A stretch of DNA of 64,000 nt, taken from positions 86,777 through 150,776 of the forward strand of contig NZ_AOIJ01000051.1 in assembly GCF_000337175.1 (NCBI RefSeq), given 5' to 3'. The first letter of the stretch is position 1, and every line of letters starts with the position of its first letter. The translations under genes were made by a program, and so were the position numbers. The DNA is from Natrinema gari JCM 14663 (lineage in GTDB: Archaea; Halobacteriota; Halobacteria; Halobacteriales; Natrialbaceae). Below the pieces are notes generated by a model, which made no database searches, was not told the DNA's origin, and saw nothing but the letters and a program-made list of their open reading frames with translations. This document shows, piece after piece, positions 55,315 through 60,811 of the stretch.

Positions 55315-56283
55315 CTACTCCCGCCCGACCCACTTGAGGATCAGCAACGTCCCCTCGAACAACAGGATCATCGTGACGGCGACGAGGATGGGGGCCATCA
55401 TCGTCGGATCGATCGTGAACATAAACGAGAGGCCGGCGAAGGCCGCCCAGAAGTACAGCCGCTTCTGGGCCAGCCAGCGACGGGTCGTCACGCCCAACAT
55501 GATCGCCAGCATGATGAACAGCGGAATCTGGAAGACAATGGCGAGAAAGCCGGTCAACGTGATGATCAGATTGAACGTATCACCGAGCGCGTACGCGATC
55601 TCCGCGCTCCCCTCTGCGTAGTACGTGAAGTACTCGAAAAGCAGCGGCAACACCAGCACGTACGAGAACACCATCCCGCCCGCCGCCAACACGACGCTCG
55701 TGGGCACGGCCGCGAGGTAGTACTTGCGCTCGTTGGGGTACAGTCCCGGCCGCATGAACAGGTAACACTCGTAGACGAACGCCGGCAACGCGACCATGAT
55801 CCCCAACAGTGAGGAGATCTTGATCCGCGTCAACCACAACTCGAGCGGGTTGTAGAGGTGCGGCGGCGGGGCGTTACCACCCTGTGGAAAGACGTTGAAC
55901 CAGACGGAGACGATGGCATCGGAGGCCCACAGCAGGCCGATCGCCGTCCCGCCGGCGCCGAACAGGAGGACGACCGCCAGTCGGAGCACCATCTCCTCGA
56001 TGTGGTCCGCCAGCGGCATCTCCTCGTCGTCCGGCGGCGTCGAGATCCCGCCGATATCGTCGTCGCGATCGGGATAGGTCGGCTCGGGGTTGTGCGGATC
56101 GCTGACGACGCCTTCGCCGTCGGTCTCGAGACTGGGGCCGTCCGCGTCGTCGGTCTTGGTCAACCCGTCTCCGGAGTCGGTGGGGTCGGAATCGGAGCCG
56201 GACGCGACTGACTGTCGCTCGTCAGGGTTATCACCCGGCTCTCGGGGGCCCTCGACATCGCGGTCGTCCGGTTCGTCCGACAT
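55315..56283 (-). CDS. tatC: TatC1, twin-arginine translocase subunit
   Basis: The 322-residue protein has a long acidic N-terminal extension (~90 residues) followed by six TatC helices: MPLADHIEEMVLRLAVVLLFG, then FVYECYLFMRPGLYPNERKYY with the conserved loop-1 Glu/Pro pattern, and FQIPLFIMLAIMLGV. TatC recognises twin-arginine signals; many proteins in this window carry them. It is divergent from the fused double TatC gene by 141 bp. Confidence 0.93.
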   Translation of the reverse strand: MSDEPDDRDVEGPREPGDNPDERQSVASGSDSDPTDSGDGLTKTDDADGPSLETDGEGVVSDPHNPEPTYPDRDDDIGGISTPPDDEEMPLADHIEEMVLRLAVVLLFGAGGTAIGLLWASDAIVSVWFNVFPQGGNAPPPHLYNPLELWLTRIKISSLLGIMVALPAFVYECYLFMRPGLYPNERKYYLAAVPTSVVLAAGGMVFSYVLVLPLLFEYFTYYAEGSAEIAYALGDTFNLIITLTGFLAIVFQIPLFIMLAIMLGVTTRRWLAQKRLYFWAAFAGLSFMFTIDPTMMAPILVAVTMILLFEGTLLILKWVGRE

Positions 56284-56424
56284 CTACAGGATATTGATAG
56301 GCCGCTGGTTATAGGCCTTTTTCTTACGGACCCCCATCGAAAAGCGAGAAGGTCGTTCGAGCGGCCCTCGAACCGGGTACCCACTCGAAAGGTTGATAAC
56401 TGGATGTCAGTTACCGTGTATCCA

Positions 56425-58755
56425 ATGAGTTCTGCCGTCGACGAGGACACTGCCAAGGCCCTCAACACCGGCCGGGAGACGATCGGTGCACTACTCTCGG
56501 GTGCCCAACAGCACCTTCAGAAGGTGTTTATCGTCTTTCTCGTTGGCTTCGTCGGCTCCTTCTACGCGCTGCGCGTGGTCGTCTGGGACTTCCTCAAGGC
56601 GACCGCGAAGGCCAAGATGGGCCAGCAGGTCGCCGGCTCGACCGACGTCATCACCCGGACGCCGTTCGAAGTGATCCTGCTCCAGGCGAAGATCGGCATG
56701 GTCACAGGCATCATCGTCGCGATCCCGGCCTTACTCTTTTTCTCTCGGAAAGCGCTCCGCCGCCGTGGCTACACCAGCGCCATTCCGATTTCGAAGGGCT
56801 ACATCGCCGGCTTCATCGCGATGGCACTGTCGTTGTTCATGGCGGGCGTCATCTACGCCTACAATATCTTCTTCCCGTACGCCTTCGGGTTCCTCGCGAA
56901 AAACGCCGTCAGCGCCGGCATCAAACCCAGCTACGGTATTACCGAGTTCACCGAGTTCATGGCGCTGCTGACGCTGTCGTTCGGCCTCGCCGCCCAACTG
57001 CCGCTGTTGATGGGCGTGTTGTCCTATACCGAGATCGTTCCCTACGAGACCTTCCGCGACAAGTGGCGACACGCCGTCGTCGCAATCGTCATCTTCGGGG
57101 CCCTGTTCTCGCCGCCGGACCCGTTCACGCAGGTCATGTGGGCGATGCCGATGGTCGTCCTCTACGTCTTCAGTCTCGGGCTGTCCAAGGTGGTCACCAA
57201 CGTCCGCCGGCGCGGCGCGGCGAAATACGCCGGTACGGGGACGAGCCACGTTAAACGCCGTCTCCTCCAGTTCGGCGGCGTTCTGGCCGTCGTCGCTCTC
57301 GGAACCACCGCCGCGGTCAACCAGGGCGGCTTCGGCTACCTCCGCGAGTCGGTCTACCCCACGTTCCCGTCGTGGCTGCGACCCAGCGGGACGACCGGCC
57401 TCGAGACGATGGCGATCGAACACGGCCTCCTCGGGGAAATCGGGGTCGGGCTGGTCGTCGCTGCCGGCGTCGGTTTCGTCGTCCTGCTCGGCTACACGAT
57501 TCACGTGCTCCAACAGCCCGTCTACCCGCGACAGGACGACATCCGACGAGCGAGCACCCACGAAGATGTCGACTTCGAGACGCTCGCGGTCGAGGACATC
57601 GAGGACGTGTCGACGCAGGTCTTCCGGACGATGAGCGAGGACCAGGCCCTCGAGTACTCCCGGCAGGCCATGTACGACGACGATCGAGCGAAAGCCCAGG
57701 CGATCCTCGATCGGTTCGATACGGTCGAGGAGATGGACGACGAGTCGGCGGCGGCAGCGGGAGGCGCGGCCGCGACGGGAGCGGCGGGGAGCCAGGAGGA
57801 CGAGGGTGGCCTCGTCGCGAGCACCGCCGCCGGCATGCTCGATCCGTTCACCGAGGACGAGACGAGCGAAGACGACATCGGGGGCTACGCCTACGACATC
57901 GCCTTTATCTTCAACAGCCTCACCTCGAAGGTGTTCCGCATCGTCGGGCTCTTCATGGTCGTCATGGGGGGGACCTTCTTCTGGCTGTACTCGGACGGCC
58001 TCGGGAATATCCTCAAACTCTTCCTCGATCGTGTTCCCCGGCACGTGCTCGAAGAGGTCGTCGGGAAAGGCGTCGATCCGAGCACGCTGACCCTCTCCGA
58101 ACTTATCGAAAAGATGGATATTGTCATCGCCTTGAATCCAGTCGAAGTGCTCATTTTCGAGGCGAAGGTGAGCGCCCTTGCTGGTTTCGTCGCCGCGTTG
58201 CCCGTAATCCTGTTTTATGCCTGGGAGCCAGCCAAGGAGCGCGGCCTGGTCTACGGCGACCGTCGCACGTTCATCGTCTGGGGTGGCGGTCTGCTGGCCG
58301 GCTTCGCCGTCGGAACCTACCTCGGGTTCTTCTGGGTCGCGCCGTCGATCATCTCGTATCTGGTTTCCGACGCGCTCGCCAACAAGATGGTCGTCTCCTA
58401 CCGGATCAAGAGCTTCTTCTGGCTCGTGATCTTCACCACCGTTGGCATCGGCTTCCTGTTGAACATCATCGTCACGATGGCCCTGTTCCACGTCGGCGGC
58501 ATCGTCAGCTACCGCTCGATGCTCGAGCGCTGGCGGCCGGTTGTGGTCGGCATCTTCGTCGTCGCCGCCTTCTTCAGTCCGAAGGGGATCCTCATGATGT
58601 TGCTGTTCGCCATCCCGATCTCGTTCACCTACCTGCTCGGGCTCGCCGTCCTCTACGTGCTGACCGCCGGTGGACGGCTGTTCGGCGGCGGTGGCGGATC
58701 GGCAGCCGAGGCCGACGCCGACGCCGAAGACGCCGGCGTCGCTGCCACGGAGTAA
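56425..58755 (+). CDS. tatC: TatC2, fused double TatC (haloarchaeal TatCt type)
   Basis: The 776-residue protein contains two complete TatC units joined by a soluble linker (Ala/Glu/Asp-rich, near residues 410-480), some 14 membrane helices in all. Unit 1 includes FEVILLQAKIGMVTGIIVAI, unit 2 VEVLIFEAKVSALAGFVAALP, both with the E-A-K segment of TatC. Such fusion is a known haloarchaeal feature. ATG 56425 (MSSAVDEDTAKALN) is used rather than the ATG at 56404. It faces tatC1 divergently. Confidence 0.93.
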   Translation: MSSAVDEDTAKALNTGRETIGALLSGAQQHLQKVFIVFLVGFVGSFYALRVVVWDFLKATAKAKMGQQVAGSTDVITRTPFEVILLQAKIGMVTGIIVAIPALLFFSRKALRRRGYTSAIPISKGYIAGFIAMALSLFMAGVIYAYNIFFPYAFGFLAKNAVSAGIKPSYGITEFTEFMALLTLSFGLAAQLPLLMGVLSYTEIVPYETFRDKWRHAVVAIVIFGALFSPPDPFTQVMWAMPMVVLYVFSLGLSKVVTNVRRRGAAKYAGTGTSHVKRRLLQFGGVLAVVALGTTAAVNQGGFGYLRESVYPTFPSWLRPSGTTGLETMAIEHGLLGEIGVGLVVAAGVGFVVLLGYTIHVLQQPVYPRQDDIRRASTHEDVDFETLAVEDIEDVSTQVFRTMSEDQALEYSRQAMYDDDRAKAQAILDRFDTVEEMDDESAAAAGGAAATGAAGSQEDEGGLVASTAAGMLDPFTEDETSEDDIGGYAYDIAFIFNSLTSKVFRIVGLFMVVMGGTFFWLYSDGLGNILKLFLDRVPRHVLEEVVGKGVDPSTLTLSELIEKMDIVIALNPVEVLIFEAKVSALAGFVAALPVILFYAWEPAKERGLVYGDRRTFIVWGGGLLAGFAVGTYLGFFWVAPSIISYLVSDALANKMVVSYRIKSFFWLVIFTTVGIGFLLNIIVTMALFHVGGIVSYRSMLERWRPVVVGIFVVAAFFSPKGILMMLLFAIPISFTYLLGLAVLYVLTAGGRLFGGGGGSAAEADADAEDAGVAATE

Positions 58756-58949: not shown

Positions 58950-59126
58950 ATGCCCAAGATCAGCGTCGAAATCCCACAGGAACTCCTCGACGATCTGGAC
59001 GATCACGTCGGCGACGACGGCAAGTTCGTCAACCGCAGCGACGCGATTCGATCCTCGATCAGGAAGAATCTGGATATCTTAGACGAGATCGACAAACGAC
59101 ACGACCGCCTCGAGGAGGACGTATAG
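58950..59126 (+). CDS. Ribbon-helix-helix (CopG-type) DNA-binding protein
   Basis: The 58 residues fit the RHH fold: strand MPKISVEIPQELLDDLDDHV, helices with FVNRSDAIRSSIRKNLDILD. It should bind DNA as a dimer. The start is ATG 58950. It lies 135 bp before the halocin-like gene on the same strand and could regulate it, though it may equally be a backbone gene. Confidence 0.85.
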   Translation: MPKISVEIPQELLDDLDDHVGDDGKFVNRSDAIRSSIRKNLDILDEIDKRHDRLEEDV

Positions 59127-59261
59127 TAGTTTCAAGCCACATTTGATATTCCCGAACCACAGTAAAATCCTGTCGCCAACCATAGCCATATAAATCAGAA
59201 CCATTAAAAAATAGAATAGGGAGAAGATATAAATGAATAGCTATAGTATACTTTAACGTAG

Positions 59262-59966
59262 ATGTCGAAAGATAACTTGAAGATCGAGGCTTCAAGGAGA
59301 AAAGTTCTTCGAACAATGGGTACAAGCGGTGCAGTAGCAACCGGAATAGCAGTTTCGTCCAATACCGTTTCTGCTCGTTCAGAGTATGAATCAGAGCTTC
59401 AAAAACTCGAACAAAAATACGACTCTAAACAGTCGATCCAACGAGCAATAGATGAACATTCACTGGCTACCCTTCAATTACTCTCGAAACACGATATTAT
59501 TGACAAGCCGTCATCTTCATCGTTACCTCTTGGACAGTCAATCAATATCGCTGATGTAGAATCGGCACAGAACAGAGACGGTTTTGCTGTTACGTCAATC
59601 GTTGAAGATGGAGAAGCGACAGGATTCATCGCAATTTCACATACTACTGACGACCGTGACCTCTCGTTATACGTTCAACCCGAACGGGAGGAGTCCTATG
59701 CGTATGTAAGAGACGATGAGGGAACGAAATTGTTCCAATCAAAATCGAGAGAGGATGAACCAAGTGAATCATCCGAAGACGGCACTGTAACGACGTTACA
59801 AGACTGTTCAGAAGTGTGCTACGAGTCAAGATGTACAAATAGAGATTGCTATGTTATCTGGAATGTAGGTGTCGACTATAAGTGTTGTGTGGATGAAAAC
59901 GGGAATGAAGAATGTAACAGAACAGGAAGTTCCGGCTGCCAATGTGGAGATCGAAAATGTGAGTAA
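59262..59966 (+). CDS. Tat-exported Cys-rich precursor, halocin C8-like
   Basis: The 234-residue protein has three parts: a twin-arginine signal (ASRRKVLRTMGTSGAVATGI), a hydrophilic pro-region (~40-178), and a C-terminal tail of about 53 residues with ten Cys (182, 186, 191, 196, 208, 209, 218, 226, 228, 233). Its pattern starts DCSEVCYESRC and includes EECNRTGSSGCQC. From memory, mature halocin C8 also has ten Cys, opens with CSxxC and ends with ACNRAGLC, and is cut from a Tat-exported precursor whose pro-part gives immunity. The organisation here is alike, so a secreted peptide antibiotic is likely. AT-rich codon use marks it as acquired. Confidence 0.75.
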   Translation: MSKDNLKIEASRRKVLRTMGTSGAVATGIAVSSNTVSARSEYESELQKLEQKYDSKQSIQRAIDEHSLATLQLLSKHDIIDKPSSSSLPLGQSINIADVESAQNRDGFAVTSIVEDGEATGFIAISHTTDDRDLSLYVQPEREESYAYVRDDEGTKLFQSKSREDEPSESSEDGTVTTLQDCSEVCYESRCTNRDCYVIWNVGVDYKCCVDENGNEECNRTGSSGCQCGDRKCE

Positions 59967-60037
59967 TACTGTTAAAAGTCGCTATCACATATTACAAACC
60001 AATTATTTTATTGTCCACATACAGACAGTATTAGAAG

Positions 60038-60811
60038 TTATGTTTTGTTGAGTCGCTGGGCGAACCCGAAGTTCGGCTTGACGTCTTCGACGCGTACCTC
60101 GACCGTGTCCCCTTCGTCGGCTCCGGACACGAACAGCCGGTAGCCGTCGACGGACGCGATGCCGTCGCCCTCGTCTCCGACGCTTTCGATTTCGACCTCG
60201 AGTTCGTCGCCCGACCGTACCGGGGCGGTGAGCCGGCCTTTCCCGATGAAGTAGACCTCGGATGACTCGTCGCGGCTGGCCTTCGGCGAGGTCGCGCGGA
60301 CGTACTGGAACTCCGCTTCGGCGTCGGCCCGGAAGTCGTCGACGTCCGGCCCTTCGAAGACCTTCACGACGAAGTCACCGCCGCTGTCGAGGAGTTCGTC
60401 GGCGGTTTCGAACGCCTGCCGAGCGAGGTGGAGCGAGCGGGCCTGATCGAGCGAGTATTCGCCGGACATGTTGGGTGCCATGTCCGAGATGACGGCGTCG
60501 ACGGAGCCGTCGGCGGCGTCGACGACCCGCTTGCGGGTCTTGTCCTCGGTCATGTCACCGCGGAGTGTCTCGACGTTGTCGTGGTCTTCGAAGTCGTCGA
60601 TCCGCTGGAAGTCGACGCCGATGACGTTCCCTTCCGGGCCGACTTCCTCGGCGGCCACCTCGAGCCACCCGCCGGGCGCGGCCCCGAGGTCGACGACCGT
60701 GTCGCCGCGGTCGATGACGTTCTCGAGTCGGTCGAGTTGTTTGAGCTTGTAGGCCGCTCGGGAGCGGTACCCCTCCTGTTTGGCCTTGTTGTAGTAGTGA
60801 TCGCGCGTCAT
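60038..60811 (-). CDS. rlmE: 23S rRNA 2'-O-methyltransferase RlmE/FtsJ with TRAM domain
   Basis: The 257-residue enzyme has the FtsJ core (SRAAYKLKQLDRLENVI, VVDLGAAPGGWLEVAAEEVG, AVISDMAPNMSG, DFVVKVFEGPD) with the K-D-K-E catalytic residues in place, and a C-terminal TRAM domain (GDELEVEIESVGDEGDGIA ... FVSGADEGDTVEVRVEDVKP). It methylates a ribose in 23S rRNA. The TRAM fusion is typical of Archaea. It converges with the halocin-like gene. Confidence 0.95.
   Translation of the reverse strand: MTRDHYYNKAKQEGYRSRAAYKLKQLDRLENVIDRGDTVVDLGAAPGGWLEVAAEEVGPEGNVIGVDFQRIDDFEDHDNVETLRGDMTEDKTRKRVVDAADGSVDAVISDMAPNMSGEYSLDQARSLHLARQAFETADELLDSGGDFVVKVFEGPDVDDFRADAEAEFQYVRATSPKASRDESSEVYFIGKGRLTAPVRSGDELEVEIESVGDEGDGIASVDGYRLFVSGADEGDTVEVRVEDVKPNFGFAQRLNKT

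Follow-up and report, generated by a model that had tools for sequence, protein, structure and literature searches.

A single-gene insert in Natrinema gari encodes a predicted Tat-type pre-pro-peptide with a cysteine-rich tail, a putative family of its own with an architecture like that of the halocin C8 precursor

The DNA analyzed is a 64,000-nucleotide stretch of the genome of Natrinema gari JCM 14663 (contig NZ_AOIJ01000051.1, positions 86,777 to 150,776), hereafter the window. It contains an open reading frame for a 234-residue precursor that was confirmed as a real gene and is single-copy in this 4.02-Mb genome (G000); its features are collected in Table 1. Inspection of the precursor sequence reveals an N terminus of the Tat type, in which SRRKVLRT is followed by a hydrophobic stretch, although Tat profiles matched it weakly and below the cut-off in an NCBIfam scan (E 0.0013). 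Apart from this generic Tat region, no match to the precursor was found in NCBIfam, and none was found in Pfam. Cysteine is absent from residues 1–181 and occurs ten times within residues 182–233, giving a C-terminal tail with the framework C-3-C-4-C-4-C-11-CC-8-C-7-C-1-C-4-C and the last residues GDRKCE. The position of a TATAAAT element upstream of the gene would fit an almost leaderless transcript.

Table 1. Features of the focal locus (window positions) and of loci with ComQ-like genes (positions within the named locus)
Feature	Position	Strand	Basis or remark
Pre-pro-peptide gene, 234 aa	59262..59966	+	ORF, ATG to TAA; relatives found; no Pfam or NCBIfam family
Predicted Tat-type signal peptide, about residues 1-39	59262..59378	+	SRRKVLRT at residues 11-18
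Cys-free pro-domain, about residues 40-159	59379..59738	+	AlphaFold2; sequence stretch common to the family
Acidic linker, residues 160-181, TVTTLQ ahead of the first Cys; presumed cleavage region	59739..59804	+	pLDDT about 50; junction motif; putative cleavage
Cys-rich C-terminal peptide, residues 182-234	59805..59963	+	Ten Cys, all kept in the G117 orthologue
TATAAAT, centre 31 bp 5' of the ATG	59228..59234	+	Sequence inspection; putative function
Single-gene insert, 911 bp, RHH stop to rlmE stop	59127..60037		Flank spacing across 29 genus genomes
58-aa RHH protein gene, core flank, outside the system	58950..59126	+	29/29 genus genomes
257-aa rlmE/FtsJ-like methyltransferase gene, core flank, outside the system	60038..60811	-	Name presumed, no profile test
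ComQ-like genes beside W-terminated members	L092:6083-6931, L071:6045-6905, L080:7925-8779, L086:5076-5933, L093:7697-8548, L098:7756-8619, L105:5888-6763
34-aa ORF ending APW, ...RRKQRDEEYAKLAPW	L195:1348-1449	+	About 50 bp from ComQ-like gene
34-aa ORF ending GVW, ...RRKDRDEEYARLGVW	L196:2377-2478	-	About 50 bp from ComQ-like gene
Tat protein with hydrophobic Cys-containing tail ending NNSWI, a different tail type	L193:638-1333	-	Adjoins ComQ-like gene

The precursor gene is flanked by an RHH gene, which was found at 89–100% identity in each of the 29 genus genomes, and by a convergent gene that we take to encode an RlmE/FtsJ-like methyltransferase. The site between these flanks is empty (0–100 bp) in 27 of the 29 genomes and filled in only two, namely G000 (911 bp) and G117, which belongs to another species (970 bp); in both, the precursor gene is the sole gene of the insert. 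A reading made from the sequence alone (the sequence-only reading) had counted a nearby RHH regulator among the features that suit an acquired bacteriocin-type gene. A linked regulator was ruled out, since the RHH gene belongs to the core of the genus, usually occurs without the insert and is thus no part of an acquired cassette. What has been inserted at this clean site is a single gene, that of the precursor, next to which the RHH gene is a bystander; no immunity, transport, receptor or kinase gene was found in the 911-bp insert. The same reading had inferred an acquired gene from its low GC content, and here the genome comparison agrees with it: the gene is patchy and accessory, and its GC content is 43% (37% at third codon positions) against 62% for the window. 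Low GC is also a trait of the family described below, 60 of 66 members lying below their flanks with a median deficit of 0.066. A plasmid and phage search returned no copies of the focal protein. Just upstream (window 55315-58755) lie genes for two membrane proteins of 322 and 783 residues that look TatC-like in sequence.

Comparison of the two filled sites showed 60% protein identity for the precursor, against 79% for RlmE, 91% for RHH and 95% for PCNA. All ten cysteines are conserved in the G117 precursor. Synonymous sites are saturated in this pair, and non-synonymous change amounts to 0.21–0.24. That non-synonymous change lies far below synonymous change and that the ten cysteines are kept indicate that pro-region and tail alike are maintained by selection.

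Among 391 haloarchaeal genomes, all of one class, a single-sequence search detected relatives of the focal protein in 30, and a profile search recovered at least 66 full-length members from 36, a lower bound obtained with seven candidates scored per genome. Short profile matches confined to positions 1–60, which occur in most genomes, represent other Tat proteins and were excluded from the count. Full-length relatives matched the profile with E values down to 1e-62; the focal protein, itself part of the seed, scored 7e-63 and combines the Cys-free pro-domain with an even-Cys tail. The layout proposed from the sequence, a Tat signal followed by a pro-region and a Cys-rich C terminus, recurs in all 66 members. 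Nor are these housekeeping proteins, as full-length members occur in just 4 of the 29 genus genomes. Some genomes carry up to six or seven members, and tandem copies with different tails were found at L086 (three), L077 (two) and L111 (two). The arginine pair of the Tat motif is invariant or nearly so across 64 members, and a TDDxxLxLYVQPE..xSYAxV stretch within the pro-domain is common to the family.

Except for Tat signals, comparison of the 64 members with Pfam and NCBIfam gave no meaningful match. Among 295 genomes of the phylum, ten candidates per genome being scored in the first pass, no match at 1e-7 was found outside the haloarchaeal order, and the focal protein had no match in the named genomes. 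A match in a bacterial contig of Xanthovirga aplysinae (31% over 58 residues in a two-sequence alignment) was weak and was judged unreliable. As judged from their sequences, the proteins with a Tat signal, this pro-domain and an even-Cys tail are a separate family unmatched in Pfam or NCBIfam. The Makarova et al. 2019 survey of archaeal antimicrobial peptide families is said to have predicted Cys-rich secreted haloarchaeal peptides; it may already list relatives, which weakens the claim to novelty.

Several kinds of gene adjoin individual members. An ABC ATPase and an ABC-2 permease, possibly an immunity or export pair, lie directly downstream of two members with related 16-Cys tails (L104:7660-9389 and L109:5250-6979), and a subtilase adjoins the member at L088. 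Related secreted or lipoprotein-like proteins directly adjoin four members (L126:5540-6739, L100:5680-6990, L108:7676-8866 and L076:7708-8826); HExxH is kept in two of them (L100 and L126, putative metallopeptidases) and lost in the other two. A membrane protein of ∼275 residues containing EYTGxxRCxPCTxVN...YLRGYLVPGTPTLTK adjoins several members (L122:7723-8535, L119:5933-6814 and L086:8628-9461), and its L122 copy had no match in Pfam.

AlphaFold2 predicted the focal pro-domain with pLDDT values mostly of 85–97 as helices at residues 35–52, 56–66 and 68–76 followed by a four-stranded sheet at 107–151, and the linker that follows (residues 160–182) at low confidence, with pLDDT ∼50. The best Foldseek hit among solved structures had an E value of 0.5. 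With VIA-align the top Z score of 5.0, to actin-capping protein, lay within the chance range, and the score of 3.8 to IVY lysozyme inhibitors was insignificant. No convincing resemblance to a solved structure emerged. A search of solved structures with the family sequences returned Tat signals only.

The tails have diverged strongly, with a median identity of 24% across members and cysteine numbers that range from 4 to 22. Accordingly, the ten-Cys pattern to which attention had been drawn holds for the focal protein and its closest relative, but beyond these it is an even number of cysteines that is conserved instead: 63 of 64 tails contain an even number, as do 55 of the 56 clusters obtained when tails are grouped at 45% identity, the cluster result being expected with P ∼8e-16 under random parity. 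The first 120 residues are Cys-free in 56 of the 64 members. Because neither metal sites nor random enrichment in cysteine would give such parity, the tail is read as a disulfide-stapled module, the pairing itself being predicted from the parity. The focal protein shares a CC-x(7-9)-C-x(5-8)-C core with ten further members. The focal tail was modeled by AlphaFold2 as low-confidence strands. Members at L079:7001-7657 and L097:6983-7651 carry 20–22 tail cysteines and have a metallothionein-like look.

The closest known counterpart in architecture is the precursor of halocin C8. The sequence that we take to be mature halocin C8 was matched letter for letter by a precursor in G004. Mature halocin C8 defines the NCBIfam family TIGR04449 (halocin_C8_dom), which the true HalC8 matches at 1e-16, and the exact sequence is present in one genome of the focal genus. 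A near-identical mature sequence is found in the focal genome itself (G000:C52:23253-23834; L199:5254-5835, minus strand), in a frame that opens with neither a start codon nor a Tat signal and therefore looks broken. ProC8 and the focal precursor are alike in possessing a Tat-type signal, a Cys-free pro-region and a ten-Cys C terminus, all encoded by one self-contained gene. In contrast, neither the focal protein nor any of the 64 members matched TIGR04449; the halocin C8 framework starts C-2-C-7-C-3-C, whereas the focal tail starts C-3-C-4-C-4-C; the focal tail is shorter, at 53 residues against 76, and hydrophilic, with a GRAVY of -0.81 against +0.89; and strands are predicted for it, at low confidence, where halocin C8 is predicted to form helices. 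A profile comparison of the family's tails with halocin C8, the check that had been proposed on the mature part, found no similarity. The focal protein therefore lies outside the halocin C8 family. The sequence-only reading had been right that the mature part differs and is shorter; of its suggestion of a distinct halocin C8 subfamily, the distinct family and the like architecture stand, and membership in halocin C8 is ruled out by the TIGR04449 non-match, the Cys spacing and the hydropathy.

The pro-domains present a different picture. The predicted order of elements, helix-helix and then antiparallel sheet, is alike in both precursors. Just before the first tail cysteine, the motif V-[STE]-[TPASI] was found in 32 of 64 family members, against 21% of background windows, and in 17 of 28 halocin C8 precursors, against 18%; V-[ST]-x at this junction is shared by many members of both families. 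Its enrichment in both suggests a common processing site. A first hhalign comparison of the pro-domains, made with a coarser alignment and filters on, gave no match. When the pro-domain lacking its Tat region was searched with filters off against ∼6,770 proteins, halocin C8-domain precursors were the top three outside the family, the best with E 0.004 and collinear, two of the three being near-duplicates. A repeat of hhalign with a cleaner alignment and a halocin subfamily gave a weak match (probability 26%). A distant homology of the focal and halocin C8 (HalI) pro-domains is thus possible, and the proteins are best described as forming a family of their own, similar in architecture to the halocin C8 precursors and perhaps homologous to them in the pro-domain. 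More tentatively, and rather doubtfully as yet, a single export-and-silencing pro-domain, distantly common with halocin C8 precursors, may have had unrelated C-terminal peptides swapped onto it in evolution: hydrophobic helical halocins, hydrophilic disulfide-stapled peptides and W-terminated peptides to which ComQ-like prenylation may apply.

The model that best accommodates these observations, to which a probability of about one-half is assigned, is that of a self-contained, horizontally patchy secreted pre-pro-peptide from which a disulfide peptide of ∼6 kDa would be released outside the cell, most likely as an antagonist. The folded precursor would leave the cell by the Tat pathway while the Cys-free pro-domain, a helical hairpin plus a four-stranded sheet, accompanies the tail and keeps it silent. 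The exposed acidic linker would be cut outside the cell, probably by an extracellular subtilisin-type protease, to free a peptide of ∼53 residues with about five disulfides, which would most likely inhibit competing haloarchaea. The producer would probably be protected by the pro-domain or the uncut precursor, in the manner of HalI for halocin C8. For HalC8 and HalH4 it is established that the active part is released from the C-terminal end, and in Haloferax mediterranei the serine protease HlyR4 frees the active C-terminal fragment of HalH4 extracellularly (PMC12893001); the likeness to the focal precursor lies in the presumed release route.

Antagonism is preferred on three grounds: the gene is accessory, the tails are strongly divergent and several members occur per genome. 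The neighbors of some relatives, namely the L088 subtilase, the putative HExxH lipoproteins and the ABC transporter pair, were also counted in its favor. An insert that holds no separate immunity gene and a pro-domain that starts with helices fit the halocin C8 plan, in which, according to Sun et al. 2005 as cited in PMC11509114, a single gene provides production and immunity and, according to titles cited there, the N-terminal helix-loop-helix of HalI is required. On the other hand, every halocin described to date is reported to be hydrophobic (PMC11509114), so that the strongly hydrophilic focal tail counts against an antagonist, and tail-specific immunity is hard to square with one pro-domain combined with tails so unlike one another. 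Also weighed against it were the lack of tail similarity to halocin C8, the absent and later weak pro-domain match in hhalign, and structure searches that gave no pointer to a function.

Tails that diverge, genomes that hold several members and tandem copies whose tails differ are what one would expect of a diversifying weapon or signal, and a conserved pro-domain carrying divergent C-terminal peptides would also suit a pheromone, exported and processed in the same way but sensed by kin with no killing of rivals. This reading draws on a subset of members that end in tryptophan. A gene for a ComQ-like enzyme of ∼285 residues, with an invariant EYYDIxDDxxDxD and a profile match of 5e-7 to isoprenyl synthases in the PDB, adjoins seven of the eight loci with such a member and none of 51 other loci (Fisher p 2e-8). 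For the eighth locus the gene lies elsewhere in the genome, so that all eight loci have the enzyme in the same genome; it was found in 11 of the 391 genomes. Where genomes have the enzyme and no W-tailed member, three of five show a neighbor of the ComQ-like gene that ends in or near tryptophan: the 34-residue frames at L195 and L196, which are related to each other and are candidate ComX-like short precursors, and the Tat protein at L193 (Table 1). In Bacillus, ComQ prenylates a tryptophan of the ComX pheromone (PMC4008528). The haloarchaeal arrangement looks like ComX/ComQ-type tryptophan prenylation of secreted peptides, and the members with a ComQ-like neighbor suggest that some of the family, at least, serve in signaling. 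The likeness to the Bacillus subtilis system is limited to the W-terminated subset with the neighboring isoprenyl-synthase-related enzyme: the focal protein has no C-terminal tryptophan, G000 has no ComQ-like gene, and neither receptor nor kinase is encoded in the focal insert. Moreover, a 53-residue peptide with ten cysteines is large for a pheromone, and prenylated peptides may also be toxins. For the focal gene a pheromone is therefore considered unlikely, and the antagonist remains preferred.

Small disulfide-stapled domains are often inhibitors, and the tail might accordingly be a secreted protease inhibitor, or another protective disulfide-rich protein, directed against halolysins or grazers. 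Proteases do adjoin some relatives (the subtilase at L088 and the HExxH lipoproteins at L100 and L126), but they are few and none is present at the focal locus, and the extreme divergence of the tails together with the empty sites suits conflict better than housekeeping protection, making this interpretation improbable. An exported metal- or redox-binding protein with the cysteines as ligands, as the few relatives with 20–22 cysteines (L079 and L097) might lead one to suppose, is likewise improbable, since the even parity of the clusters is expected for disulfides and not for metal sites, the Cys spacing is unconserved and the tail would be extracellular if exported.

The sequences of very few peptide toxins from archaea are known, and the toxins described so far are said in the literature to be hydrophobic. 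The family adds dozens of disulfide-rich candidates which, with their pro-domain, empty sites and parity signature, form a direct list of genes for testing, and it offers a way to learn whether immunity and delivery are a general function of the HalI-type pro-domain. Through the ComQ-like subset, the prenylation of peptides in haloarchaea, and possibly signaling by peptides, would become accessible to experiment. Should a common pro-domain indeed have carried exchangeable peptides, it would amount to a modular, conotoxin-like arsenal or signaling repertoire in Archaea.
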